The notes under the pieces: model-generated
Databases searched by the model: none
Told to the model about the DNA's origin: nothing
The model's input: only the letters and a program-made list of their open reading frames with translations
Part shown: positions 3,428 through 19,448 of the stretch, in pieces
Position numbering within the stretch: the stretch's first letter is position 1
Layout: every line of letters begins with the position of its first letter
Virus record (IMG/VR): IMGVR_UViG_3300020162_001668
Span: 1 to 28,422 of that record
DNA: 28,422 nt
Source of the DNA: a virus
Strand: one strand, 5' to 3'
Program-made: the position numbers and the translations under genes

Positions 3428-4687
3428 ATGGCATTAACTCCTGCACCCGCAGCCCCTACGCAAACTCCTGCTCCAGGAGCAACTACACCTGCTGCACCAA
3501 CAAAGGCACCTGAACCGAAAAAAGAAAGTAGGTTCAGCAGAGGAACTGCGCCTGTTAATTTCCTAGAAACACCGCTGGATAAAGACGGACAACGACGTTA
3601 TCCGTTAGATATTGGAAATTCCGACGAGTTTCCACATTATGTTGTTTTCTATCCTCTTGTTCGCGAAGGAACAAAACGAGGTAAAGAATTATTGGCAAGC
3701 GGTGGTGGAAGAATTTTCGACCAGACAGACCAAAATAGAGTTGATCCACAAAATGGTGAATTGGCGGTAGGAGCGGCAGGTGCAATTCTTGGCGCAGGCA
3801 TAGGTGCATCTACTGGAATTGGTGCTGCAGTATCTCTCGGTAATCGATTAAAATCAAATGGCGGTAATACAGTAAATCCGAATCCGAATGTCACAGGCGG
3901 TCCAGTTTCTATTATTACTAAATTGGCAGCAGGACTTGGAGGAGCACTCATTGGTGGGGCTGTGGGCGGTGCAGCAGGTGTTGCTGCTAGTGCTATCGCT
4001 GGAGAGCAACGTCTAGTAATTGGTAGCGACGAAATCGTTCTTCATATACCAGAAAAAATTGGATCAGCATATAATGCAAACTATGAAACAGCAGATCTCG
4101 GCGCACTCGTCGGTGGTCTTGCTTCAGGAAAGACATCACTATCAGGATTGGTTAAAGAAGGATCAGAAACTGCTGATTATCTTGTGAGAAAGGCAGGGCG
4201 AATCGCGAATATCGCTGGATTTGATCAATTTAATAATGCTCTGGAAGCAACTTCTAAGAAAGTAGAAAATCCATACAAGGAGCAATTGTTTAGATCCATG
4301 GGATTTAGAAAATTCTCATTTGACTATAGATTCGCGCCGAGAAATGCTGCTGAGGCAGAAATGGTTTTTGGATGGCCAACAGGAACGAATGGTATCCGAG
4401 ATTCAGGTATACTCAAATTATTTGCGATGCACATGCATCCAACCATGAGTCCCAATGGACTTTTCCTAACATATCCATCAGAATTCATGATAATCTATTA
4501 TCACAATGGTACTGAAAACACATATGTTAGAAAAATATCAAACTGTGTGTTGACAGACATGATTATTGATTATGGTGCAGAAGGGTTTACTACATTCTCA
4601 AATGGTTGTCCGACTGAAGCATTTGTTAGACTTCAATTCTCTGAATTGGAAACTCTGACTACCGAAAGAATTGATAAGGGATACTAA
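3428..4687 (+). CDS. gp48: gp48-like baseplate tail tube cap
   Basis: The 419-residue protein shows the C-terminal half of the T4 gp48 family clearly: ENPYKEQLFRSMGFRKFSFD (about 280-299), FDYRFAPRNAAEAE, LKLFAMHMHP, LTYPSEFMIIYYHNGTEN and a final FSELETLTTERIDKGY. In T4, gp48 forms the ring on top of the hub on which gp54 and then the tube assemble. The N-terminus (1-33) is Pro/Ala/Thr-rich. Two glycine-zipper-like hydrophobic segments at 112-137 and 165-191 resemble membrane-inserting helices, separated by an Asn-rich loop. T4 gp48 is 364 residues, so these segments account for much of the extra length. The start ATG has an AGGA site about 12 bases upstream. Confidence 0.85.
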   Translation: MALTPAPAAPTQTPAPGATTPAAPTKAPEPKKESRFSRGTAPVNFLETPLDKDGQRRYPLDIGNSDEFPHYVVFYPLVREGTKRGKELLASGGGRIFDQTDQNRVDPQNGELAVGAAGAILGAGIGASTGIGAAVSLGNRLKSNGGNTVNPNPNVTGGPVSIITKLAAGLGGALIGGAVGGAAGVAASAIAGEQRLVIGSDEIVLHIPEKIGSAYNANYETADLGALVGGLASGKTSLSGLVKEGSETADYLVRKAGRIANIAGFDQFNNALEATSKKVENPYKEQLFRSMGFRKFSFDYRFAPRNAAEAEMVFGWPTGTNGIRDSGILKLFAMHMHPTMSPNGLFLTYPSEFMIIYYHNGTENTYVRKISNCVLTDMIIDYGAEGFTTFSNGCPTEAFVRLQFSELETLTTERIDKGY

Positions 4688-4688
4688 T

Positions 4689-5201
4689 ATGTTTTTTTCT
4701 ATGTTCCCCAAATTGTTAGTCAATACTATCACACCAAACACAGCAACACTTGTAACTGATATATTTCGTAGAATCTCGCTCAATAAATTCAAAAGCAATA
4801 TAGTTTTATTACAAACAATTACTGTCCCAGATGGTTTTACGATTGAGCAAGTTTCTGATAAGTTTTACGATAGTCCAGACTATCATTGGGTAATAATGAC
4901 TATAAATGATATTGTTGACGTGCGTAAAGAATGGCCGATTGGTGATTCAGATTTAATAGCATATTGCAAAAAAAAGTATGGTGAAACTGGAATTTACTTG
5001 CCCCACCACTACAGAACAACTGATACTCCACCATTGATTGTGGATTATGATGCCACAGATTTAACAAATGGCGTAATTAATGTTGTTTCTAATTATCAGT
5101 ATGAAGAAGAACTAAATAATACAAAGAGGGAAATAAAGATGTTGGAGCCAAAATATTTGGCGGAATTCGTATCTTTATACTCGAGTTTGATTAGTAGGTA
5201 A
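4689..5201 (+). CDS. gp53: gp53-like baseplate wedge protein
   Basis: I chose the ATG at 4689, one base after the gp48 stop. It gives MFFSMFPKLLVNTI, matching the T4 gp53 beginning (MLFSFF), whereas an upstream TTG at 4671 would add six unsupported residues. The 170-residue product has the family core FYDSPDYHWVIMTINDIVDV, in which Y-W-V-I-M-x-x-N follows a conserved Y/D segment, and a C-terminal helical region with KREIKMLEPKYLAEF. T4 gp53 (196 residues) is the last wedge protein to bind and lets wedges join around the hub. An AAGGG site lies inside the end of gp48. Confidence 0.85.
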   Translation: MFFSMFPKLLVNTITPNTATLVTDIFRRISLNKFKSNIVLLQTITVPDGFTIEQVSDKFYDSPDYHWVIMTINDIVDVRKEWPIGDSDLIAYCKKKYGETGIYLPHHYRTTDTPPLIVDYDATDLTNGVINVVSNYQYEEELNNTKREIKMLEPKYLAEFVSLYSSLISR

Positions 5202-5207
5202 TTAATA

Positions 5208-7304
5208 ATGGCAGAACCGACAGCAGATCCAAGTAAATCTGCATCAACTAAAAAGGTATCAGGAGTCAGTGATGCATTGGCAAAACCAGGAGATGTAATT
5301 ATTGCATCTCTTGACTTAACCGTAATCTCATCACAACAACCATTAGATCTAAAACCGTTTATGATGGAAATAAATCTTTATGAAGATATTTTTTCACCGA
5401 CTTTACATGGATCAGTGGTTATTCGTGATTCTTTAAATCTTGTTGGAACGTTACCGATTGTCGGGGATGAAGTTCTCACTATTGATATACAGACTCCATG
5501 GGGAGAGATGGGTGGTTATTCGAAAGGCAATCTTGGAGCATTCGATCCAATTAACAAAATTCAGAAATCTTTCTCTGTTTATGCAGTAAAAAATCGCAAA
5601 CTTAATAATGATAGAGAGCAATATTACGAATTACTATTTTGCTCATTAGAAGCAGCTGCTGATAACGTTACAAAAATAAGTAAAAAATTTGAAGGAACAA
5701 CTGATGAGATTGTTTCTGAGATTTTTACAGAAAACATGAAATCAAAAAGATTTTTCAATAGCAAAGACGAAGTTGTTGCGGCACCCGTCCCGACGACAAC
5801 TGATGGAACCGAATCTTCTCAAGATGTAACTGACGAGACATTATATACGGAACTGTATATCGCTGACACTCCACACGAGACAGAGATAACATTTGTATCT
5901 CCAATGTGGTCACCAATCGAAACATTGAATTGGTTAGCAAAAAGATCTATTGGTAATCTACACAAATCTCCGACATTTTTATTTTATGAAACAACAAAAG
6001 GATTTTATTTTGCATCCATAGAAGCTCTTGTTAAAAATCAGTTAGAAAACGGAGATATTTACTCAGCGTTTGTATACAATACTAATCTACAAAATCTTGA
6101 TAAAGTTTCCTCAATGATCAAAGGATTTCAAACAATTGAGGCACTAGAATTTATTACAAATTTAGATATACTTCAAAGTCAAGACTTGGGGCATTTCGCT
6201 AGTACTATTCATTCATTCAACATGGTTAAGAAAGAATATACTGCATATCATTATGATCATGGGTTCAACTATAAACAATATAATCACATGGAAGATGGAA
6301 AATTGGATCCAGCAACAGGGGCATATACATTCCCTGACATTGATAGAGATGATCCTAGTAAAACCGACAAAAAATACAAGATGATTTTTCCAATTAATGT
6401 GATGCGTTCTGCAGATAGTAAACCATTTGTTTCAACGGTTAATCCTGGTGTGTTGGATTCAACAGTAGACTCTATCGATTTACGCCCTGAAGATTTTGTT
6501 TCACAGAGAAATAGCTCTTTGATGGACTTGACCACATTGAGATTACAAATAACAGTTCCTGGAAGAACAGATGCTGAAGTTGGTAGAATGATTAAATTAT
6601 ACTATCCATCTGTTGGGGAAAAAACTAAAGAAGATTCTGAAGCATTGATATGGGACAAATTTATATCTGGTATTTACATGATAACTGCGATACGCCATCA
6701 AGTATCACCACTAAGACATACCATGTTTTTAGAGATTTCTAAGGATTCATATGCACAACAAATATATGAGGTCGAAGAGATTGGTGGTTCAGTTAACACA
6801 GAAAATACAGGAACTCCGGCACCAGATCCTGCAGCAACTCCGGCAGATCCAGCAGCAACTTCAGCACCAGCAACGAATTCGGCAAAACCAGTTGGAAAGG
6901 GTTCGTTTATCGGTGATAGTATTGCACAAGGTCTAGGAAGTTCTGCCAAGAATGCAGCAACAAATGCTACTGTTGGTTGGAATACTGATAAAATTAAGAA
7001 AAATTATGTTGCCAAGGGTGGTTCCGATTATACAGTTATTTCAATGGGATCAAATGATAAGGGTTATCCAAATATTAAAACTGCTGAAAACGCAACTGCA
7101 GTAAGAGAATCTATTAAATCCCAAACTAAAAAGGTTATTTGGATTCTTCCATATGATAATACTATTGCACAGAAAATACAAGGTGTTGCATCTAAATACG
7201 GCGATAAAACTGTTAGACTATCAGAATTCCCCTCTAATGATGGATTACATCCAAAGAGTTATGCAAAGGTTCTCGAACGTGTTAACAGTGAGATAGGAAG
7301 TTAA
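5208..7304 (+). CDS. gp27: gp27-like baseplate hub protein fused to a C-terminal SGNH hydrolase domain
   Basis: The 698-residue protein joins two parts. Residues about 30-540 look like the T4 gp27 hub: LKPFMMEINLYEDIFSPTLH (about 49-68), GDEVLTIDI, a WSPIETLNWLAKRS segment and a C-terminal ISGIYMITAIRHQVSP segment (about 486-501). In T4 a gp27 trimer links the gp5 spike to the tube. A Pro/Ala/Thr linker (about 538-563) then leads to an SGNH/GDSL-type esterase domain. Its block I is GDS with Ser571, block III is GSND with Gly614 and Asn616, and block V is DGLH with Asp678 and His681; the block II glycine is less clear. SGNH enzymes cleave esters, often acetyl groups on glycans. The substrate here is unknown; peptidoglycan or surface polysaccharide would fit a tail-tip site. 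The gp5-like gene follows after three bases. Confidence 0.85.
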   Translation: MAEPTADPSKSASTKKVSGVSDALAKPGDVIIASLDLTVISSQQPLDLKPFMMEINLYEDIFSPTLHGSVVIRDSLNLVGTLPIVGDEVLTIDIQTPWGEMGGYSKGNLGAFDPINKIQKSFSVYAVKNRKLNNDREQYYELLFCSLEAAADNVTKISKKFEGTTDEIVSEIFTENMKSKRFFNSKDEVVAAPVPTTTDGTESSQDVTDETLYTELYIADTPHETEITFVSPMWSPIETLNWLAKRSIGNLHKSPTFLFYETTKGFYFASIEALVKNQLENGDIYSAFVYNTNLQNLDKVSSMIKGFQTIEALEFITNLDILQSQDLGHFASTIHSFNMVKKEYTAYHYDHGFNYKQYNHMEDGKLDPATGAYTFPDIDRDDPSKTDKKYKMIFPINVMRSADSKPFVSTVNPGVLDSTVDSIDLRPEDFVSQRNSSLMDLTTLRLQITVPGRTDAEVGRMIKLYYPSVGEKTKEDSEALIWDKFISGIYMITAIRHQVSPLRHTMFLEISKDSYAQQIYEVEEIGGSVNTENTGTPAPDPAATPADPAATSAPATNSAKPVGKGSFIGDSIAQGLGSSAKNAATNATVGWNTDKIKKNYVAKGGSDYTVISMGSNDKGYPNIKTAENATAVRESIKSQTKKVIWILPYDNTIAQKIQGVASKYGDKTVRLSEFPSNDGLHPKSYAKVLERVNSEIGS

Positions 7305-7307
7305 ATT

Positions 7308-8324
7308 ATGGCAATGAATAATATTACATCTAATAATAATGCAAACTTCTATTGGTGGTTCGGAGTGGTGGAAGATCGTGATGATCCACTACGACTGGGT
7401 AGATGTCGAGTAAGAATTATTGGATATCACACGGAAGATACTGAGACTCTACCAACAGAAGATCTTCCATGGGCGATACCAGTCATGCCAGCAAACTCAG
7501 CAGGTACTTCTGGTGTTGGGTGGTCTCCGACTGGTGCAGTAGAAGGTTCTTGGGTTGTTGGATTTTTCGCCGATGGCGAAAATGGTCAACATCCTATGTT
7601 TTTTGGATCTGTAGGATCAATTCCAGGAGGATTAGCATCAGCAGATTGCGCTCCTTCCGAGGGATCCGGATCTTCTGGTGATGCTGCAACAGGTAGCGGG
7701 GATTCTGGTTCTGCTGGCGATGTCGGTGATGTAGTACAACCAAGTGGTAATGCCAAAGATCTGGAATCTTACTTGGAATCTTGGTTAGATGCTAATGGTA
7801 GTAAAAAAATAAAAGGATATACTCCACTTGCCAAGGCTATGATCATGGCACAATGCGCCCACGAATCTGCTAACTTCACGAAAATGACAGAAGTGGGCGA
7901 CGACAATTATATTAATAATGGTAGACGCAAAAACGGGACAAAGGCTCATAGCGGTTATGATATTACAAGTATAGATCCAGAAGGTAGGAAAAGGGCGAGG
8001 TTAAATGGCAATACGCAACCAGGAGATGGAAAGAAATATCGCGGAAGAGGATTTTTGGGACTTACGTGGAAAATTAATTATCGAAACGCTGGAAAGTACC
8101 TTAACCAACCGCTGGAGCAAAATCCAGAGTTAGCAGCAACTAAAGAGGTCGCAGCATTAATACTAATTTACTACTTCAACAAAGAACGACCCAACATAGG
8201 CAAAAATAATAGATGGGGCGATGTCGAGTACGTATCTACAGCAATTAATGGTGTGGACCCTGCGTTGGGTCTTGCTGATAGAAGAAAGAGATTTGCCTTC
8301 TATAGAAATAAGTATAAGGTATAA
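7308..8324 (+). CDS. gp5: gp5-like hub protein: OB-fold domain plus GH19-type lysozyme
   Basis: The 338-residue product starts with the gp5 OB domain: FGVVEDRDDPLRLGRCRVRI (18-37), LPTEDLPWAIPVMP (48-61), TGAVEGSWVVGFFADGENGQ (75-94) and FFGSVGSIPGG (98-108). A Gly/Ser linker (109-147) follows. Residues 150-338 resemble glycoside hydrolase family 19: AQCAHESANF with likely catalytic Glu186, KYRGRGFLGLTWKINY (243-258) and a YVSTAINGV helix (308-316). Family 19 members in phages cut peptidoglycan or chitin-like polymers, so it replaces the T4-lysozyme domain of T4 gp5. The C-terminal beta-helix of T4 gp5 is absent here and is found in the next ORF, three bases downstream. An AGGAAG ribosome site precedes the ATG. 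Confidence 0.88.
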   Translation: MAMNNITSNNNANFYWWFGVVEDRDDPLRLGRCRVRIIGYHTEDTETLPTEDLPWAIPVMPANSAGTSGVGWSPTGAVEGSWVVGFFADGENGQHPMFFGSVGSIPGGLASADCAPSEGSGSSGDAATGSGDSGSAGDVGDVVQPSGNAKDLESYLESWLDANGSKKIKGYTPLAKAMIMAQCAHESANFTKMTEVGDDNYINNGRRKNGTKAHSGYDITSIDPEGRKRARLNGNTQPGDGKKYRGRGFLGLTWKINYRNAGKYLNQPLEQNPELAATKEVAALILIYYFNKERPNIGKNNRWGDVEYVSTAINGVDPALGLADRRKRFAFYRNKYKV

Positions 8325-8327
8325 CCA

Positions 8328-11300
8328 ATGAAAAAATATGATTCATCTACTCCATATTTTACGACAGTTGACAGTATCAACATGGCGGAAGACGAGACCA
8401 TTGGTTCTCTGACTCGCGATGATGTCGTTACGCTTCTGAAGCAAATTCAGAACGCCATGACCCTGCAGTATTATAATCGAGTATATAATTTTGGCGAAAC
8501 TCCGAAACAAGGATTTAATTTACTCGTTTCACCTGGATATATTGTTCCCGCTACAGCACCAACAGTAGTAGAGACTGCAGCAACAGTAACACCAACAGCA
8601 GCAGTAACTACTGCAACAACAGTTAATACTCCAGTTAAGAGAATATCAACTGATCCTGCAGATTTCGAAGATGCAGATCCATATATTCAAGATCAAATCG
8701 TCGAGATAGATGCAACAACACCACGATTGTGGGCGAAACTCAAAGATGGAAGAATTGTTGAACCTAATTTTCACACTAATATAGATGCTAACAATGATGC
8801 AAAAATCGCATATAGATTAACTCTAGACGCAGCGAATACTCCTGAGACATCAACAGTAACACCAACAGCAGCAGTAACACCAACAGCAGCAGTAACTACT
8901 GCACCAGTCGCTGTAACACCAACTGGCGATCAGTGGAAATTCAACGTCGTGCATGCGGATGGTGAATATGGTGTATATAAACTGGGTGTTACACAGTTAA
9001 TTGATGGAGGAATACTCGGAAGCGAATTGAACACCTGGATTAATGACAATCTACCAAATATTCCTGTACCATCAAGAGGTAACGAAGAATATGAAAGTTG
9101 GTATAGTCGGTTTGTGAAGTATAATTCCGGTAAGCAAACAAGAATAATTGAAGCGCCTGTAAGTGCAAGAAATAATGCATTATACTACATGCTCATACAC
9201 ATTATTAATGGTTCAGATTCAAGATTTAATGTTTCTTGTCATCCGGAAATCAAATCAGAAATAATTGTAACACCAGCACAACCAGTTAAGAGAATATCAA
9301 CTGATCCTGCAGATTTCTTACGCGCACATCCAGATATTCAAGATCAAATCGTCGAGATAGATGCGGATGAAATACCATTATGGGCAAAACTCAAAGATGG
9401 AAGAATTGTTGAACCTAATTTTCACACTAATATAGATGCTAACAATGATGCAAAAACCGCATATAGATTAACTCTACAAGCGCCGAATACTTCTGAACCA
9501 CCAAGAACAAGATTTCTTGATCCGAAAAATATGCATGATGCGTTCATTTTACAACCACATTTACAAGATATTGCTGCAGTAAATTTGCTCAAATTCACAT
9601 ATCAATTATTGCTGACTTCAAGAGCAATTAATGAGAGTGTTGATAAAAAGACTCTTGCTGGCGCATTGGGTATGTCGATTTGTTGGGATATCGACGCAAC
9701 TCAAAACTATTTACGGGGAAATGTTAAGACAGATGCAAATGGTGTATCTGCTAAATATTGGTTTGATGTTGGATTTAATGCTGTCGCGCTTCCAATAGAA
9801 CAGGTTGCAACTCCAGGACCGACTCCTGGAACGACCAGTATTGTCAAGGAAGAACAAATCACTCCTCCTGGAGTCCCAGGAGAAATATTAATAATAGGAT
9901 CAACTGACCCCGCAGATTTCGAAGATGCAAATTCATCTATTCAAGGTCAAATCGTTGAGATAGATCGATTCGGTGGTTGGGCAAGACTAAAAGATGGAAG
10001 AATTGTTGATCCGGATGAACCCACGGATGTAAGTTCGAATCTTAGTGCTAAAACTGCATATAGATTAACTCTAAAGGCACGTCAACAAGAACTGAATAAA
10101 CCTGCAACACCATCAACAGCAGGTGAAACTACACCAATAACTACAGCAGATACTGCAGTATCTGCTGCAGATACTGCAGTTTATGTTGTTCCCACTGAAA
10201 AACCAAAAATAGTAGGCGAGACTACAGTAGAGACTGCAGCAACATCTAATTCTCCATTGGAAACAAAGGAAGTTCCCAAAAAGATTGTTAGAACAATCAA
10301 TAATGGATCAATTACTTATGAACTAACGCCAACAGGAACTATATCTGCAAAGGTTGTGACAGGAATTAAGAGCACTCCTGCGCCTGCATCTGCATCTGCA
10401 TCTTCATCAGTAGCCAATCCATATGATTTTACTCAAAACGGAATACAAATTACTGCAGAACATGTTGGCACCGAAACGTATACTCTTCGTATTGTAGATA
10501 AAATTGAAAATAATAGAGAGTTATTCGCTGGTACCAATAAAGATTCAAGCGCATTATCTGCTGCAGCAATAACGACACTTACTCGACTGTCATTAACAGA
10601 ACGCGATTCTTTACATAACAGACCTTCTTTCGGTACTTGGTTACTTGCTATTGATGATACTACAGATTGGTTGATTGGAACCTATCCTTCCATTGCAGGT
10701 TCTGTCCAAGAATTAGCAAGCACAGATAAAAATTCTGCAGCAGATGACGCAGAAAGTAATAAGACTATTGCGTTTGATGATCCGGCCGATGTAGAAACTC
10801 TGATCAAGCAACTTGATACTAAGGCACGAGAAGCAGATAGATCAAAATTGACATTTACATATGTCGCATGTGTCTCAGCAAAAAATGAGATCCTATTAAA
10901 CTTTACTTCAGATACTGCAAGTATGTCTGCTGCTGTTTCTCAATCAACACAAACTGCATCAGATGGTAGTTCCACTTCTTCTGTTTCAACACTACAACCA
11001 TCAGGTGCTGTTACTACAATAACAACAACCACGGAATCAGATGGAACAGTGTCCCAAGGAAAGATTGTCGAGAAAGTAGAAGCACCATTAAAGGAACAAC
11101 CAAAATCAACTATTGATAATGGTATTTCTCATCCTGCGCAGGCAGCTGATGCAGTAAATACTGCAGTCAATGCACCAGACGCAGAAAATCTTCCAACAAA
11201 TGAAAATACTAATATTGCTAAGGAAGATGGCAAAGGATTCAAAGACCCAAAGAAGAACTATCCAAAACCAGACTACGTAAACAAACCAGATACTAATACT

Positions 11301-13325
11301 CTTGCGCTTGGTATCAATTCCCCTGGAATTAACCCAGACCCAAGAACATCTGCGGGCGATAAATCTTCTCAGTCATTAGGTTCTTCGCCAGCAGCAAGGA
11401 ACGCATCGAGAAAACGTGCGGTAAAGATGGCGGGTCGTTCTGGTTCTACATGGGAACAACCAGCAACTCCGTATGCTGCAAAGTATCCGTTTAACAAAGT
11501 TTTTGCAGGTGAATCTGGTCACGCATTAGAAATCGATGACACTCCTGGATTCGAGCGATTGAATATTGCTCACAGATCAGGAACCTTTACGGAGACTGGA
11601 CCAGATGGAACTCAGGTAAATAAAATTATCGGTAATGGTTATTCCATAATAGAAAAAGACGGGTATGTCCTTATTGAGGGTAATGCCAATGTCCATATCG
11701 CAGGGCAATGTAATGTGTTCATCATGAATGATACCGCATTAACTATGCATGGTAAAGTCAGTCTTGATATCCATAATGATGTTAATGTCAACATTGGCGG
11801 ATCGCTTGGTCTTTCAGTACAAGATGGTATCTACCTCAGAAACGAAGGTGACATTTCTGTTAAGAATGAAGGTAAGGTTGACGCTGAAATAACAGGAGCA
11901 GTAACTACCAAAACTACAGGTAAATATAACCTAACAACAGTCGCAGGATTGAATCTATCATCCAAGGTTAATACGCATATCAAATCTGGCGGAGCATTTT
12001 TCAATCATTCAACTGGTAACATGAACCTATGTACTGATGCAGAAATTCTTGCTAAATCTACTGGTGATATTAACTTGAAAACCGCTGCGATGATCAATCA
12101 AGAAGCAACTGGTAATGTTAATATTAAATCTGCTGCGATGATCAATCAAGAAGCAACTGGTAATGTTAATATTAAATCTGCTGGAACTATTAATGCAGAA
12201 AGTACAGGAAATATCAGTTTGAAGGCACCACTGGTTACTTCTTCGCCAATTGATACAGCAACTCTTGATGTTACAACTGCAAATATTACTACATTGAATG
12301 CAGGAACCACAAATCTCAAGGGAACACATAATACTCCAGATGATACTACCGATATAAAGGGTAATACCACTGCATCTATCACAGTTCCTGCGTCTGCTGG
12401 TTCTGCTGGTTCTGCTGAAGATGCAATCTGTGCAGTAGCAGCAAAACTTCCAGTGACATATGAATTAGAAAAACCTGTTTCTCTATCTGCGCCACAACCT
12501 GTCGAGAGAACAAATGATGCTGTTAAGACTGGATATAGTGGCGAAAACAGTAGTATGAATACTGATGGTGGTGAACCTGATGAAAATGGTAATGTTGAAG
12601 GGCAACTTTCTGGTGCTGAAGGTGGTGAAGATTGCGTCAACAATGGAGATCCTTCAACGAGCACTTCGTCTGATACATCAGGCGGAACATCAGGCGATGG
12701 TACTACTTCCTATCCTCCGCCAGCTGGAAAAAGTGGAATTCCATCAAAAGATTGTAATACATTGAAGGGAGTGAAACTTCCACCTCTTCCTCAACAGGGA
12801 CAAAAATATGATGGTACTTTAAAAATTTCCTCGAGAATAACACTGGCACAATTATGTAATGGCAGGGATGGTTGCCCTAATGGTGCTGCTGATCTTCGTG
12901 GGCATAAATCACCAGGAAGTAAACAAAATGAATATGAAATATTGAATAATCTTCGTTGTCTTGCGGTTAATGTCATCGAACCATTATTCGATAAGTACGG
13001 TAAAGTATCATGGTCTTGTGGATTTAGAAAGTATTATCCAGATGGCACAAAAACAAAACTGGATACCAATGCGCATGGTTGGGGATCTGCTGCTGATTTA
13101 AGTTTCCCTAACTTGAATCCAAAACAGTATATTGATGTTTGTCGGTGGGCAGCATCAAATTTGAATGGATATGATCAGATAATCTTGGAAAGAAATGCCC
13201 GTGGCAGTGTTTGGATTCATATTGGATACACGAACAGAGATGGAAAACAAAGAGGACAAACGCTTACAGCAACACCAGGTGGTAAAGGTATGGTTTATAA
13301 ATCTGGGTTTAGGCAAGTCGTCTAG
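8328..13325 (+). CDS. Giant spike protein: repeat-rich N-terminus, gp5-type beta-helix, C-terminal M15 zinc peptidase
   Basis: The 1665-residue protein has several regions. Residues 1-75 are helical. Residues 102-171, 319-388 and about 524-584 are three copies of a repeat with STDPADF, IVEID and KLKDGRIV motifs, joined by Thr/Pro/Ala linkers. Residues about 600-1060 include unrecognised and low-complexity sequence. From about 1060 comes the gp5 C-terminal spike signature (GHALEIDDTPGFERLNIAHR), then a beta-helix to about 1330 built of octad-type rungs. The C-terminus (about 1500-1665) is an M15-type peptidase with HGWGSAAD (His1583, Asp1590, the HxxGxAxD motif) and WIHIG (His1631) as predicted zinc ligands. 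T4 gp5 carries its beta-helix in the same chain as the lysozyme; here it is a separate gene. It probably forms the trimeric needle and cuts peptide cross-links. Confidence 0.82.
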   Translation: MKKYDSSTPYFTTVDSINMAEDETIGSLTRDDVVTLLKQIQNAMTLQYYNRVYNFGETPKQGFNLLVSPGYIVPATAPTVVETAATVTPTAAVTTATTVNTPVKRISTDPADFEDADPYIQDQIVEIDATTPRLWAKLKDGRIVEPNFHTNIDANNDAKIAYRLTLDAANTPETSTVTPTAAVTPTAAVTTAPVAVTPTGDQWKFNVVHADGEYGVYKLGVTQLIDGGILGSELNTWINDNLPNIPVPSRGNEEYESWYSRFVKYNSGKQTRIIEAPVSARNNALYYMLIHIINGSDSRFNVSCHPEIKSEIIVTPAQPVKRISTDPADFLRAHPDIQDQIVEIDADEIPLWAKLKDGRIVEPNFHTNIDANNDAKTAYRLTLQAPNTSEPPRTRFLDPKNMHDAFILQPHLQDIAAVNLLKFTYQLLLTSRAINESVDKKTLAGALGMSICWDIDATQNYLRGNVKTDANGVSAKYWFDVGFNAVALPIEQVATPGPTPGTTSIVKEEQITPPGVPGEILIIGSTDPADFEDANSSIQGQIVEIDRFGGWARLKDGRIVDPDEPTDVSSNLSAKTAYRLTLKARQQELNKPATPSTAGETTPITTADTAVSAADTAVYVVPTEKPKIVGETTVETAATSNSPLETKEVPKKIVRTINNGSITYELTPTGTISAKVVTGIKSTPAPASASASSSVANPYDFTQNGIQITAEHVGTETYTLRIVDKIENNRELFAGTNKDSSALSAAAITTLTRLSLTERDSLHNRPSFGTWLLAIDDTTDWLIGTYPSIAGSVQELASTDKNSAADDAESNKTIAFDDPADVETLIKQLDTKAREADRSKLTFTYVACVSAKNEILLNFTSDTASMSAAVSQSTQTASDGSSTSSVSTLQPSGAVTTITTTTESDGTVSQGKIVEKVEAPLKEQPKSTIDNGISHPAQAADAVNTAVNAPDAENLPTNENTNIAKEDGKGFKDPKKNYPKPDYVNKPDTNTLALGINSPGINPDPRTSAGDKSSQSLGSSPAARNASRKRAVKMAGRSGSTWEQPATPYAAKYPFNKVFAGESGHALEIDDTPGFERLNIAHRSGTFTETGPDGTQVNKIIGNGYSIIEKDGYVLIEGNANVHIAGQCNVFIMNDTALTMHGKVSLDIHNDVNVNIGGSLGLSVQDGIYLRNEGDISVKNEGKVDAEITGAVTTKTTGKYNLTTVAGLNLSSKVNTHIKSGGAFFNHSTGNMNLCTDAEILAKSTGDINLKTAAMINQEATGNVNIKSAAMINQEATGNVNIKSAGTINAESTGNISLKAPLVTSSPIDTATLDVTTANITTLNAGTTNLKGTHNTPDDTTDIKGNTTASITVPASAGSAGSAEDAICAVAAKLPVTYELEKPVSLSAPQPVERTNDAVKTGYSGENSSMNTDGGEPDENGNVEGQLSGAEGGEDCVNNGDPSTSTSSDTSGGTSGDGTTSYPPPAGKSGIPSKDCNTLKGVKLPPLPQQGQKYDGTLKISSRITLAQLCNGRDGCPNGAADLRGHKSPGSKQNEYEILNNLRCLAVNVIEPLFDKYGKVSWSCGFRKYYPDGTKTKLDTNAHGWGSAADLSFPNLNPKQYIDVCRWAASNLNGYDQIILERNARGSVWIHIGYTNRDGKQRGQTLTATPGGKGMVYKSGFRQVV
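8631..8840 (+). repeat. 70-aa repeat, copy 1
   Basis: This 210-base in-frame unit encodes spike residues 102-171. It is nearly identical in DNA to copy 2 over most of its length, including the KLKDGRIVEPNFHTNIDANN segment, indicating recent duplication. Confidence 0.85.
9282..9491 (+). repeat. 70-aa repeat, copy 2
   Basis: This 210-base unit (residues 319-388) is colinear with copy 1 without gaps. The main differences are in two short patches, around LRAHPD and DEIPL. Confidence 0.85.
9898..10078 (+). repeat. Repeat, diverged copy 3
   Basis: This shorter, more diverged copy keeps STDPADFEDAN, QGQIVEID, ARLKDGRIVDP and AKTAYRLTL. It lies after a Pro/Gly linker whose DNA contains two 7-bp inverted repeats. 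Confidence 0.75.
12084..12179 (+). repeat. Perfect 48-bp tandem duplication in the beta-helix
   Basis: Two identical consecutive 48-base units encode the same 16-residue rung (AAMINQEATGNVNIKS) twice. A diverged third unit follows at 12180-12227. Sixteen residues equal two octads of a gp5-type beta-helix. Confidence 0.9.
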
Positions 13326-13345: not shown

Positions 13346-13744
13346 ATGACAACAAAAACAGTAAACAGAATCTACTCGGATCTAGATCTATCCTTCGCAA
13401 TGCATCCAATTACGGGTGACGTTGCGAGGAAGTTTGATGTCAATGCTGTAAAACAGGCATTGAAAGTTCTCGTTCTTACCAACTTCTACGAAAGACCATT
13501 TCAACCTAAAATTGGTTCGCCGATCTACGGTATGATGTTTGAGAACGTTGATATTGTTACTGCCAATTCTTTGAAATTAAGATTAGAGTTATTAATTAAT
13601 AAGTATGAACCCAGAGTTAGATCGCAACAGATAGATGTTGTGCCACTTTTTGACCAGAATGCGTTTAATGTATCTATATATTTTTATGTTGTCGGGGTTG
13701 TGGATCCCGTTTCATTTTCAACTGTTCTAAGAAGAAGTAGATAA
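13346..13744 (+). CDS. gp25: gp25-like baseplate wedge protein
   Basis: The 132-residue product is the same length as T4 gp25. The N-terminus VNRIYSDLDLSF matches the family start, ERPFQPKIGSPIYGMMFEN (49-67) is the core loop, and YEPRV (87-91) holds the EPR motif conserved in gp25 and type VI secretion TssE. gp25 is a wedge component and contributes to nucleating sheath assembly at the baseplate. There is no clear ribosome site, and a late promoter abuts the start codon, so the transcript from that promoter may be leaderless. gp6 follows one base after the stop. Confidence 0.92.
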   Translation: MTTKTVNRIYSDLDLSFAMHPITGDVARKFDVNAVKQALKVLVLTNFYERPFQPKIGSPIYGMMFENVDIVTANSLKLRLELLINKYEPRVRSQQIDVVPLFDQNAFNVSIYFYVVGVVDPVSFSTVLRRSR

Positions 13745-13745
13745 G

Positions 13746-15632
13746 ATGTCTCAACTTAATGTAACTGAATTAGATTTCGCAACCATCAAGGAAAATCTAA
13801 AAACCTTCATGCAATCACAAGAGGAGTTCCAAGATTACAACTTTGATGGCGCTGGTCTTACGATCCTTCTTGATATTCTTGCATATAATACGCACTATAA
13901 TGCAACTCTCGCGCATCTTCAAGCAAATGAAATGTTTATCGATAGTGCAGTTAAAAGAAACTCGGTTACTTCGATTGCGAAAACATTAGGTTATACGCCA
14001 ACTTCTAGAAAATCTGCTCGTGCAAATATCACATTGCAGATTGATCCACCTTCTACGTTTACCAATACAAGTTTAACTATATTACGCGATACACCGTTCA
14101 CTGCAAAGACAGCAAAAAACACATATACTTTCTTTCCAAAAGAGGACTATGTTTCTGGATTAGTAACTCTTGAAACTGGTCAAACAGGATTCACTTTCCC
14201 AATGGAACTGATTGAAGGTAAGCGAGTAACTAATACGTTCATTGTTGATCAATCTAATAAATCTGGCCCATTTGTTCTGCCGAATGTAAATATTGATACT
14301 ACTACCGTCAGAGTAAGAGTGCAGACATCATCTACGGTCACATCAGTTGTAACTTGGAATTTCTATGATGACATCATGGACGTCGATGAAACTACAAAGG
14401 CATTCTTTATCGAAGAAGGTCCATCAGGATTATATGAAGTTAGATTTGGTGATGATATTATCGGTAAGCAATTACAGGTCGGTAATATTGTTGGCATTGA
14501 TTATATCGTAAGTAGCGGATCAGCAGCTAACTCTATTCCTAACTTTTCACCATCAAAAACTTTTACTGCATCTGGGGAGACTAAAGTAGTCTATCTTGCA
14601 TCAGCTGCAACTGGTGGTCGTGAAAAAGAAAGTGTTGACAGTATTCGTTATAATGCTCCTAGATTCAATTCCACTAAAAATCGCGTTGTTACTTCTGATG
14701 ATTATGAGACATTGATCAGATCTAGATTTAATAATATCAATTCTATTGCTGTATGGGGTGGTGAAGAAAATGATCCTCCTGTTTATGGCAAAGTATTTAT
14801 ATCGATTCAACCATTACCTGGATCGATAGTCTCACAGGCAGACAGAGACATTATTGCTCGAGATATTATTCGACCAAGAAGTGTTGTTTCAATTCAACCC
14901 GAGTTCGTCGATCCAATCGAAACATACATCGGATTAAATATTTCAGTCAACTACAACAAAACAATTACATCTCTTACCTCCTCTAGAATCGAGTCCGAAG
15001 TAAGAGCAATCGTGCAAAGTTTCTTTACTAATAATGTAAATAAGTTGCAGAAAAACTTTTATTATTCTAAATTGCTTTCCGCAGTTGTTGGAACGACCCA
15101 GTCTATTTTCTCTGCTAGTATTCAAGTGTTAATGCATAAAAAAATACCGATATTATCGGGAGTTTATGAAGATTATGTGATAAGATTTAATGGTCCATTA
15201 GAACCCGAAACTCTGAGAACAACGACTTTCAATACAACCATTGGTGGACAAAACTATTCTGTATACATAACAGACCAACATGATGAAACGGCAGGGGACA
15301 TCGGAACTCTTACGATGAAGAGAGCTTCAGATGACACGATTCTTTTATCTGTTACTGGAAACGTTGATTATTCTACGGGTGTTGTAACTATTACAGATCT
15401 TTTAATTAATTCTGAGACGGAAGCAGAATTTAGAGTTTATGTAGAACCTTTTGGTGATGCTCCAAATATTCTAACATCAGATCTAACATCTACTACTAAC
15501 TCATCAACGGCAGCAGTTTTCCCTTACGCTGCTAGGAATACTGTTTTAACATTGGATACTAGTGCAGCGAATTCAGTATCAAATATTCCTGTGGGTCTGT
15601 CAGTTACTGCAATTGCTAACTCGCAAGAATAA
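13746..15632 (+). CDS. gp6: gp6-like baseplate wedge protein
   Basis: The 628-residue protein (T4 gp6 is 660) starts with the family pattern TELDFATIKENLKTFMQSQE, DYNFDGAGLTILLDILAYNT and VKRNSVTSIAKTLGYTPTS. It continues with a baseplate-J-type core around YEVRFGDDIIGKQLQVGNIV and a region ending in NFYYSKLLSAVVGT. Two gp6 copies per wedge form the dimeric core ring that holds the baseplate together in the dome state and rearranges on contraction. About 90 C-terminal residues (Thr/Ser-rich) look lineage-specific. It is tightly packed between gp25 and the gp7-like gene. Confidence 0.9.
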   Translation: MSQLNVTELDFATIKENLKTFMQSQEEFQDYNFDGAGLTILLDILAYNTHYNATLAHLQANEMFIDSAVKRNSVTSIAKTLGYTPTSRKSARANITLQIDPPSTFTNTSLTILRDTPFTAKTAKNTYTFFPKEDYVSGLVTLETGQTGFTFPMELIEGKRVTNTFIVDQSNKSGPFVLPNVNIDTTTVRVRVQTSSTVTSVVTWNFYDDIMDVDETTKAFFIEEGPSGLYEVRFGDDIIGKQLQVGNIVGIDYIVSSGSAANSIPNFSPSKTFTASGETKVVYLASAATGGREKESVDSIRYNAPRFNSTKNRVVTSDDYETLIRSRFNNINSIAVWGGEENDPPVYGKVFISIQPLPGSIVSQADRDIIARDIIRPRSVVSIQPEFVDPIETYIGLNISVNYNKTITSLTSSRIESEVRAIVQSFFTNNVNKLQKNFYYSKLLSAVVGTTQSIFSASIQVLMHKKIPILSGVYEDYVIRFNGPLEPETLRTTTFNTTIGGQNYSVYITDQHDETAGDIGTLTMKRASDDTILLSVTGNVDYSTGVVTITDLLINSETEAEFRVYVEPFGDAPNILTSDLTSTTNSSTAAVFPYAARNTVLTLDTSAANSVSNIPVGLSVTAIANSQE

Positions 15633-15635
15633 TAG

Positions 15636-18600
15636 ATGACTGAAACCACATCATATTATAAGAAGGTTGCTAGTGTAACTGTTACCGATGGCGGTTCAGG
15701 TTATACCTCTGCGCCAACAGTTACAATCAGCGGGAATGCAACAGCAACTGCTACAGTTTCTGGTGGTAAAGTTACCGCAATTACTTTGACGTCTGCAGGT
15801 TATAATTATCTTTCGCCGCCCACAATTACATTTTCAGGTGGCAGCGGATCTGGTGCTGCAGCAACTGCGAACATGGTTTATATTGATGATGCCTATAATG
15901 GGTTTAAAGAATCATTAAGTCATCTTATTGCAAACCAACTTCCAGATTTCGTCCGTGTCGAGTATCCTGTATTCGTTACGTTCCTAGAAAAATATTATGA
16001 GTTTCTAGATGAAGAAAATCAGGTAAACAATTTCCTTCTCAATTATGAGAAGAATTTCGATATCAACAGAACACTTGATACATTCCTTCCCAAATTTAAG
16101 AACCAGTATGCGCAGAACTTCCCGCTTACTGCACAGATTGATGATAGAAGATTAATCAAATTCATCAAGCAGTTCTATGAAGCAAAGGGTTCTGAGAAAG
16201 CAATCGAACTTCTCTTTAGAATCTTATACAACGAACGCACAGAAATCTTTTATCCATCTGAACAGGTGCTTCGTGCGTCTGATGGTATTTGGATTGAAGA
16301 CATAACATTAAAACTTGCAGTTGATACATCCATTACAGCAAATCCGTTTGATCTAAGCAGCAAAACAGCCAAAATTACATATTATGAGAATATTTCATCA
16401 GTAACATATGAGCGAACTGTTGAAACTAGCATAAGCAATGTAACTAAATTCGCATATGTATCCCCTGCAGTTTATGAGTTGGTAACAAATTTACCTAAAA
16501 CTGCAACGATTCGAGTTCCAGGCGCTGGTGCTTCTGCGAATGCTTTGGTTTCTGGTGGTCAAGTCAAGGCGATAGTCGGAGAAACTAGCAAGACATTTAG
16601 TAGCATTACGACAGCAGGAACTCTGGTAGCGACTGTTGCTACTTCTGGTGCTGCTGGTCAGTTTACTTGTGGCAATTCAACTCTATCTATCGGTGATCGA
16701 CTTACGATTACTGGCACACCTGGAGTTGCAACTCTGGCAGCGACTGTTGCTGTCTCCGGAACTGCTGGGCAATTTACTTGTGGCGCATCAACACTTGCAG
16801 TCAATGATCGCGTAAGGATTACTGGTACTAAGGGCGGTACTGCTACAATCACTGGATACACAACAGGAACTACATATAGAGTTTCTGCGGTAACTGGTAC
16901 CTCGCCGAGTGTTACTGGATTTACGCTAACAACTGAATCTGGTACCGCAATCGTAACTACTGCTGGTACGTTAACAGGTCTGACATATACAACCACAGGC
17001 ACTATCACTGGATATACATCAGGAACCACATATAGAGTTTCTGCTGTAACTGGAACTTCGCCAAATGTTACTGGATTTACGCTAACCACTCAATCTGGTG
17101 TTCCAATCGTAACTACTGCTGGTAAGTTAACAGGTTTAACATATGCGACTGCAACAGGTATTAACTTAACGAGTAATACTATTACTGTTCCTTCTCATGG
17201 GTATTCTACAGGTGATGTGGTTATCTATGATAAAAATGGTGGGACAATTATAACGGGTCTTACCAATTACGCTGTATACTTCGTCATAGTAGTTGATGTA
17301 AATACAATTAAACTTGCTACGAGTGCAGGAAATGCTACACTTGGCACAGCAGTTGATCTTACCATTGTGGGATCAGGAAGTCAACTATTGTATGCTCCTG
17401 TTATTGATACTGGTAATGGTTATTTTGCAACACCTGCAGTACAATTCACCTCAGCGACAGGAACATCTGCAACTGCTAGAGCAATCCTGGCAGATACTGG
17501 GGAAATATCACACGTAATAGTCATAAACGGCGGATCTGGGTATTCAACAGCACCTGCTGTTACGTTTTCCACCGAAGCAGTAAGAACTAAGGTTGAGATA
17601 GTTTCTGGAACTACAACAACTCTATATGGTTATATCGTTCGCCAACTTTCGACTGTTGAAGTTATTGATTGTTCCGGAACACCACCATGTGGGTTTTCAG
17701 TCGGTGATATTTACTCAATCGATGAATCTGGTTCAGTAGGTTCGTATACTGTAGAATTTAATTCCGCAACAACTGGAACTCTGGCAGCGACTGTTGCTAC
17801 TTCTGGTACCGCTGGTCAGTTTACTTGTGGCGCATCAACACTTGCAGTTAATGATCGTATAACAATTACAGGGACTCGTGCAGGTTCTGGTACCATTACT
17901 GGGTACACGACAGGAACTGTTTATAGAGTTTCTGCTGTAACTGGTGCCTCACCGAATGTTACTGGATTTACACTAACAACTGAAGCTAACGTCGCAATCG
18001 TAACTACTGCTGGTACGTTAACAGGTCTAACATATACGACGTCAACGCCTAGTAGTTCGGGATACTTTTTAAACAAATATAACGAAACTGACACTACGCT
18101 GAACCCATATACTCTTGTTGGCAGAGATAACAAAGCATCAATTAGAATTGATGCGATTGATGTTGATGGATGTCCAACCGCAGTAAGTATTTTTGATACA
18201 GGATTCGACTTCGAGCGTGGAACGTTCACAGTAGATATAGAATCGGCACTTGGGTGTACTGCTACTCTGTCGTTTACCACGGGCGCAGTAAACGTTAAGA
18301 CAGGTAGATTTAGAGACTCGCGTGGTATGTTGTCGAATGTCAACAAACTACAAGATAACTTCTACTATCAGAACTACTCATATGTTGTTCGTTCAAATGT
18401 TCCATCCAACAAATGGTTGGATATTGTCAAGAATACCACTCACCCAGCAGGTACTGCTATCTTTGGTGAACTTACCATTGAGCAGACGGTTGACTTTAAT
18501 CAATTCATTACAACACCAATACAACCTCTGCATATCTACGAGTTTGTGCTTGAAGAACTTACTGCGTCAGGTGGTATTACTCGCAATAACGAATTCTACT

Positions 18601-19448
18601 TCGCAGTGAACTTCATCAAAGTTCTTACTGACTCTGCGGCAGTAGCAGATGTAAACAGAAGTCATGTGTTCAAGGTATTGACTGATGCTGCTACAGTAGC
18701 AGATATAACATCTCTTGATTTTACTGTTGGTATCTATGGAACCGAAGATGATACTACAGAAACACTGGATGTGTTTGATCGTGTTGTCCAATATGTGAGA
18801 GAAGTAAACGAAACAACAATTACTGCTGAAAATGCAATTACTGATTTTGGTAAGGTGCTTGAAGAAACAATTTTCCTTCAAGATCCATACGCTGAAGATT
18901 TCTTTGATGAAAATTATGTTTCGGCAGATACCACTGAATTTGATTTTGCAAAGGTTATTTCTGACGCATCAAACACTACAGACTCACAAGCGTTTGGTAT
19001 AGATAAATCTCTGGTAGATACAGTAACTAACTCGGATGCATTCACTAGAACTGTGGAGTATTATAGAACGTTTACAGAATCCGTAATATCTAATGAGTAT
19101 GCCAATGCTGGTATCGAAAAACCTCAAACAGATGTAGCAACAGCGGCGGAAACTTCGATCAATCATCTATATAAATATTTGACTGATTCTGTTACGTCAA
19201 CTGATACCGTCGGTATAATTCCATATCTGGTTAAAACTGACAATGCAGGTGCAACTGAATTATTAATTGTCGCGAATGACTCTGTAACGATAGATTCTAT
19301 TGCTGCTACTGAACAATCGCTTATAAATATACTCAAAGGACTATTTGAAACAGTAACAGTCACCGAAAGTGGTATTATAAACATACAAGATTATGTTGAA
19401 GGTGAATTCGGTTCGGACTTTGTGGGTCAAGCAACTTATTTTAACTAA
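15636..19448 (+). CDS. gp7: gp7-like large baseplate wedge protein with multiple beta-repeat insertions
   Basis: The 1270-residue protein is recognised by [20 protein letters not shown] (about 102-121), [14 protein letters not shown] and [20 protein letters not shown] followed by [17 protein letters not shown], a pattern typical of gp7-position wedge proteins in marine T4-like phages. gp7 (T4: 1032 residues) starts wedge assembly with gp10 and reaches from core to periphery. Inserted modules are prominent: a GSGY-type repeat at the very N-terminus (about 13-80) and again about 590-640, A-type repeats near residues 328, 366 and 715, B-type repeats near 405, 457 and 754, and acidic repeats at 993-1255 with the pattern KVLTDSxxVAD. 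The protein ends in a Phe/Gly-rich tail ([12 protein letters not shown]). The exact T4 equivalence of the repeat parts is uncertain. Confidence 0.75.
15675..15875 (+). repeat. GSGY-type beta module in the gp7-like protein
   Basis: It encodes two successive strands with [15 protein letters not shown] and [20 protein letters not shown]. It is related to modules in the gp8-like and 2021-aa proteins. Confidence 0.75.
16619..17150 (+). repeat. Mosaic A-A-B-B repeat block
   Basis: A units (from 16619 and 16731) share [14 protein letters not shown] and DRxxITGT. B units (from 16848 and 17004) share [20 protein letters not shown] and GFTLTT, ending in [14 protein letters not shown] identity between units is high. 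Confidence 0.85.
17778..18040 (+). repeat. Second A-B repeat block
   Basis: One A unit (from 17778) and one B unit (from 17895) closely match those about 1 kb upstream, with long runs of identical bases. Confidence 0.85.
19170..19177 (+). promoter_or_regulatory. Possible late promoter inside the gp7-like gene
   Basis: This is a perfect TATAAATA, 288 bases upstream of the 149-aa gene. It could feed that gene but may be chance. Confidence 0.4.
19322..19329 (+). promoter_or_regulatory. Late promoter upstream of the 149-aa gene
   Basis: This second perfect TATAAATA lies 136 bases before the start of the small virion protein gene, within the 3' end of the gp7-like gene. Confidence 0.5.

Follow-up and report, generated by a model that had tools for sequence, protein, structure and literature searches.

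The predicted hub protein of a T4-like contractile phage was found to carry at its C-terminus a small, apparently intact esterase domain of the SGNH type, and this end of the hub is a recombination slot, at which that domain, a second SGNH-type domain or nothing is swapped among relatives. We identified the protein (698 aa) in a stretch of 28,422 nucleotides of viral DNA (positions 1 to 28,422 of IMG/VR record IMGVR_UViG_3300020162_001668; hereafter, the window). Fusion of a hub to an esterase has precedents; what is new here is its occurrence in a contractile T4-like phage, the minimal size of the SGNH domain and its exchangeability, and the rapid exchange of enzymes is more informative than the fusion itself.

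The window contains a T4-like tail module, with a tube cap, gp53, the hub, gp5, a long spike, gp25 and gp6 in that order:

3428-4687, + strand: baseplate tail tube cap, gp48/gp54 type (PHROG 230)
4671-5201, + strand: baseplate wedge gp53 (Pfam Phage_gp53, PHROG 232)
5208-7304, + strand: hub protein, 698 aa (gp27-type body, Pro/Ala linker and C-terminal SGNH domain)
5283-6764, + strand: gp27-type hub body, residues 26-519 (PHROG 350; T4 gp27 by Foldseek)
6783-6893, + strand: Pro/Ala/Thr-rich linker, residues 526-562
6894-7301, + strand: mini-SGNH domain, residues 563-698 (Ser571, Gly590, Gly614/Asn616, Asp678, His681)
7308-8324, + strand: gp5 homologue with an OB domain and a GH19-like lysozyme/endolysin domain (Pfam, PHROG 430 and 181)
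8328-13325, + strand: long spike protein, 1665 aa, with a beta part rich in repeats and, at the C-terminus, an endolysin-like domain
13346-13744, + strand: baseplate wedge gp25 (Pfam GPW_gp25, PHROG 261)
13746-15632, + strand: baseplate wedge gp6 (Pfam Gp6-like_1st, PHROG 219)

We called the hub gp27-type, as had been proposed earlier, because of its match to PHROG 350 (residues 26-519, E 7e-73), its place between gp53 and gp5 homologues within the baseplate operon, and the fold predicted for it. The full-length model was of moderate confidence (mean pLDDT 59.7), and its best Foldseek match in the PDB was T4 gp27 (2z6b_D, E 2.4e-13), followed by other hubs and VgrG proteins. A hub profile compared with PDB sequences did not find gp27, but the fold search did, and the whole hub used as a single sequence against the PDB gave nothing useful. 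T4 gp27, which acts with gp5, shares the body fold and the position in the baseplate operon with the window's hub. However, it has no enzyme domain, as the earlier note had stated, and its structure chains comprise 361-375 residues, in comparison with 698 aa here.

The neighbors of the hub are predicted wall enzymes, in agreement with the earlier description of this locus. The gp5 homologue matched Gp5_OB (E 1.7e-14) and Glyco_hydro_19 (E 2.6e-5, just under the cut-off). The spike protein had no Pfam match; its C-terminal part matched an endolysin family (PHROG 894, E 1.8e-10) and appeared M15-like by eye, and the protein contains three copies of a module of ~65 aa (STDPADFEDA...DGRIVEPN...AYRLTL). 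A 1270-aa protein of the baseplate region (15636-19448) also has long internal repeats, with a unit of ~100 aa.

The catalytic motifs of the C-terminal domain lie where the earlier note had placed them, downstream of the Pro/Ala linker (here found to be rich in Thr as well): Ser571 of GDS (codon 6918-6920), Gly614 and Asn616 of GSND, and Asp678 (7239-7241) and His681 (7248-7250) of DGLH. The block II glycine, not named previously, is Gly590 in the sequence TVGWNT. Against Pfam, the isolated domain matched Lipase_GDSL_2 with E 1.4e-4 and 22.8 bits, missing the curated cut-off of 32.9, which is a search threshold and no biochemical criterion. NCBIfam contained no meaningful match for the domain, and as a single sequence against the PDB it gave nothing useful; only profile and structure comparisons gave matches. 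A profile built from 19 homologues matched the acyltransferase SGNH domain 5ug1 (E 1.2e-5) and also 5ufy, with weaker matches to 6wn9 and 6vjp, and the GDS and Gly/Asn blocks were aligned in these matches. When stand-alone SGNH genes and whole hubs were aligned together, the first residues of the former came out scattered, and this alignment was excluded from folding; the AlphaFold model of the domain, computed with 18 homologues, had a pLDDT of 91.8 and a pTM of 0.89. The flavodoxin-like SGNH fold, a claim that had been staked on the prediction not turning out unlike SGNH, held up well: the first 31 PDB matches found by Foldseek were all SGNH-fold proteins (best E 4e-5). The top matches were PAF acetylhydrolases, a peptidoglycan O-acetylesterase and PatB were among the 31, and Ape1 stood at rank 35. 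Both parts of the proposed fusion, gp27-type hub and SGNH domain, were thus recovered by fold and profile searches. With 136 aa, against 175-218 residues in the best solved matches, the domain is short for an SGNH fold, and we regard it as a divergent, minimal member of the SGNH/GDSL hydrolase superfamily.

Ser571, Gly590, Gly614, Asn616 and His681 did not vary among 19 sequences with identities as low as 28%, and Asp678 was kept except in proteins of the L052/L056 type. In those two the aspartate of the DxxH motif is replaced (ADSLGIHP), and an Asp is found two residues earlier. The catalytic residues were kept in every complete hub copy that we read, and pairwise dN/dS among hub-borne copies was 0.05-0.15; the hub-borne domain is under purifying selection. 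The domain likely has esterase activity.

Within IMG/VR the domain was present on 26 hub contigs, two of which have hubs identical to that of the window and one of which (L012) has a disrupted end. The closest family outside hubs consists of mini-SGNH genes that stand alone in phages and on alphaproteobacterial plasmids (28-43% identity); they have the length and invariant residues of the hub domain, but whose products are free rather than fused. The divergent homologues include stand-alone phage genes of ~130 aa, a phage protein joining a domain of this family to a downstream endolysin part (L056), a domain inside a different large protein of a phage (L047), and plasmid-borne genes of sphingomonads, Roseomonas and Methylorubrum. 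One plasmid gene, annotated as hypothetical (L063:7974-8420), stands at the end of the trb conjugation operon of a Sphingopyxis plasmid, two genes past an SLT transglycosylase gene; most of the plasmid homologues inspected have no wall-enzyme neighbors. A general tie of these homologues to conjugation operons was considered and dropped: trb and SLT genes occurred in one of six neighborhoods, another lay some genes downstream of a relaxase, and the others had neither.

Among GenBank phages, the domain matched only two records, in both as a stand-alone gene; one of the two resembles a conjugative element, with a TraG-like neighbor recognized by eye. The hub body matched 337 GenBank phage records, none of which covered 80% of the query, and the product of the annotated hub gene has 394-483 aa in the seven records that we inspected, which leaves no room for an SGNH domain. 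In cultured phages, too, gp53 precedes the hub homologue. The gene psbA, used as a test for a cyanobacterial host, was not found in 14 related contigs, all of them fragment records.

A different domain of ~165 aa follows the linker in four hubs (L073-L076), with the motifs GDSIG, GASN and DG[LI]HP; a separate scan for this second SGNH-type domain found only these four contigs. Its profile aligned with that of the first type in hhalign with a probability of 93%. It had no match among GenBank phages, and a sequence search for a solved relative gave none that was convincing. The genome of one of these hubs (L075) contains, away from the hub gene with its second-type domain, a stand-alone mini-SGNH gene that belongs to the first family (L135:4242-4661). 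Other relatives lack an SGNH domain altogether and stop at the start of the linker or within such a linker: six hubs (L013, L015, L017, L018, L021 and L071) end just past the body, and those of L077-L100 end inside a Pro/Thr tail. The gp5 gene lies directly downstream of the SGNH-lacking hubs wherever this could be read.

These three states are found on closely similar hub bodies. Over the aligned region of the body, L020 (first type) does not differ from L078 (none); body identity is 93-95% among L019 (first type), L076 (second type) and L077 (none), and 93% between L005 (first type) and L013 (none). A maximum-likelihood tree of 34 hub bodies required at least eight changes among first type, second type and none, and DNA comparisons of related hub loci showed sharp borders. 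In the window itself we recognized one exchanged block from a comparison with L020, as its DNA identity of 86% contrasts with a protein identity of just 53% between the hub bodies:

6820-7640, + strand: exchanged cassette (linker, SGNH domain and start of gp5)

The gp5 enzyme is itself exchanged on the same OB domain: GH19-like, Phage_lysozyme2, Phage_lysozyme (GH24) and SleB-like domains were seen in a comparison of 7308-8324 with L077, L078, L085, L087, L074 and L019. We also asked whether the esterase depends on a particular kind of gp5 enzyme, and saw no tie between the two. As near-identical hubs lack the domain, it is dispensable in some phages or hosts. The earlier interpretation was only partly upheld: an SGNH domain does stand on a gp27-type hub beside wall enzymes, but near-identical hubs without the domain and a gp5 enzyme type that varies independently do not fit a general requirement of the domain for lysozyme action, and the fusion is not unprecedented.

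The architecture seen here, in which a gp27-like hub at the N-terminus is joined to an SGNH/GDSL domain at the C-terminus, is described for Gp44 of Staphylococcus phage phi11 and the 80alpha tail-associated lysin (Tal, gp59) in the relevant passages of two reports, which drew on sequence comparison and at that time treated the activity as unestablished (PMC4876445, PMC7048315). These are non-contractile siphophages of Gram-positive hosts with an SGNH domain of ~240 aa, whereas the domain here has 136 aa and belongs to a contractile T4-like phage; domain exchange, which we observed, is not described in those passages. A second precedent, the diffocin hub-hydrolase CD1368, belongs to a contractile particle and likewise bears, on a flexible loop at the C-terminus of a gp27-like hub, a part that degrades the wall, but its enzymes are a lytic transglycosylase and an endopeptidase rather than SGNH, and its target is Gram-positive (PMC10996793). 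Ape1 and related SGNH esterases of the CE3 type share the fold and catalytic residues of the hub domain, which is far smaller and only 14-17% identical to them in structural alignments. In the open-access literature, with most subscription papers outside the scope of the search, we found no report of an SGNH domain on the hub of a T4-like or other contractile phage.

We consider it somewhat probable that the hub esterase enters the envelope and strips ester-linked acyl groups there to help open the wall, with the hub C-terminus as an exchange slot. In T4, gp27 is a trimer. By analogy, we infer that each virion would have three esterase copies on flexible linkers beside the gp5 lysozyme at the center of the tail tip, and that tail contraction would carry them with the hub and spike into the envelope. 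The groups removed would most plausibly be the 6-O-acetyl groups of MurNAc that block lysozyme, with acetylated peptidoglycan as the presumed substrate, after which the GH19-like gp5 domain and the endolysin-like spike domain could open the wall. Both lysozymes and lytic transglycosylases are blocked by O-acetylation (PMC6174289). A link to wall enzymes is supported by the gp5 and spike neighbors, the SGNH-endolysin fusion of L056 and the position of the L063 gene near an SLT gene; the structural neighbors of the domain include peptidoglycan O-acetylesterases and PatB. Against this reading stand the PAF acetylhydrolases as best PDB matches, the acyltransferase SGNH domains as closest profile matches, the near-identical hubs without the domain, an SGNH presence that does not follow gp5 enzyme type, and the plasmid homologues, most of which do not adjoin wall enzymes.

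The frequent swapping is typical of surface-directed modules, and tail spike proteins were among the BFVD structural matches of the domain. Both observations would also fit an esterase that removes acyl groups from a polysaccharide of the cell surface (O-antigen, capsule or slime), either ahead of penetration or in the course of it, and acts as a host-range determinant, like esterase tailspikes; the portions of two reports that bear on this describe, for other phages, SGNH esterases in tail fibers and structural polysaccharide deacetylases (PMC11058221, PMC8471582). However, the domain is borne by a hub rather than a tailspike, its neighbors are wall-degrading enzymes, and some relatives are fused to or near wall enzymes, so that we judge this explanation possible but rather improbable. 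The best PDB matches would suit a lipase or phospholipase, by which the outer membrane would be loosened where the tail punctures it. This is unlikely, as TM-scores to the PAF acetylhydrolases (0.65-0.72, normalized to query length) were no better than those to other SGNH esterases, identity to them was just 15-20%, and 136 aa would leave little space for a pocket holding a long acyl chain.

It is more doubtful still that the domain has lost catalysis, or is an acyltransferase or binding module serving as a lectin-like or structural appendage that, for example, holds the pre-contraction baseplate. The closest profile matches are indeed acyltransferase domains, and in diffocin the hydrolase lobes are said to hold the baseplate before contraction as well (PMC10996793), but the retained catalytic residues and the low dN/dS of the hub copies argue against this, an acyl donor is not expected outside the cell, and domain-free hubs exist and are presumably functional. 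Finally, all of the related hub loci come from metagenome contigs, several of them short, but it is very unlikely that the changes of state reflect mis-assembled or chimeric contigs, since the states recur across many independent samples with open frames, in-frame linkers and gp5 directly downstream, and the domain copies diverge under purifying selection.

Returning to the hub esterase as an enzyme of wall entry, its repeated swapping suggests that different envelope-softening enzymes are mounted on the tail tip to suit different hosts, the exchange presumably matching the host. More tentatively, the slot may be a dedicated one, at which otherwise near-identical hubs exchange SGNH enzymes drawn from two or more lineages to match the ester modifications of host walls; if so, the host bacteria shield their envelope by O-acylation and the phages counter this at the tail tip. 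What a tail-tip esterase does can be tested directly on this naturally occurring set of near-identical hubs, which bear the first SGNH domain, the second or neither: the enzymes could be produced and tried on the peptidoglycan of candidate hosts, and phages that differ mainly at the slot could be compared for host range. These findings point to O-acylation of the wall as a possible, little-studied barrier against phage entry.
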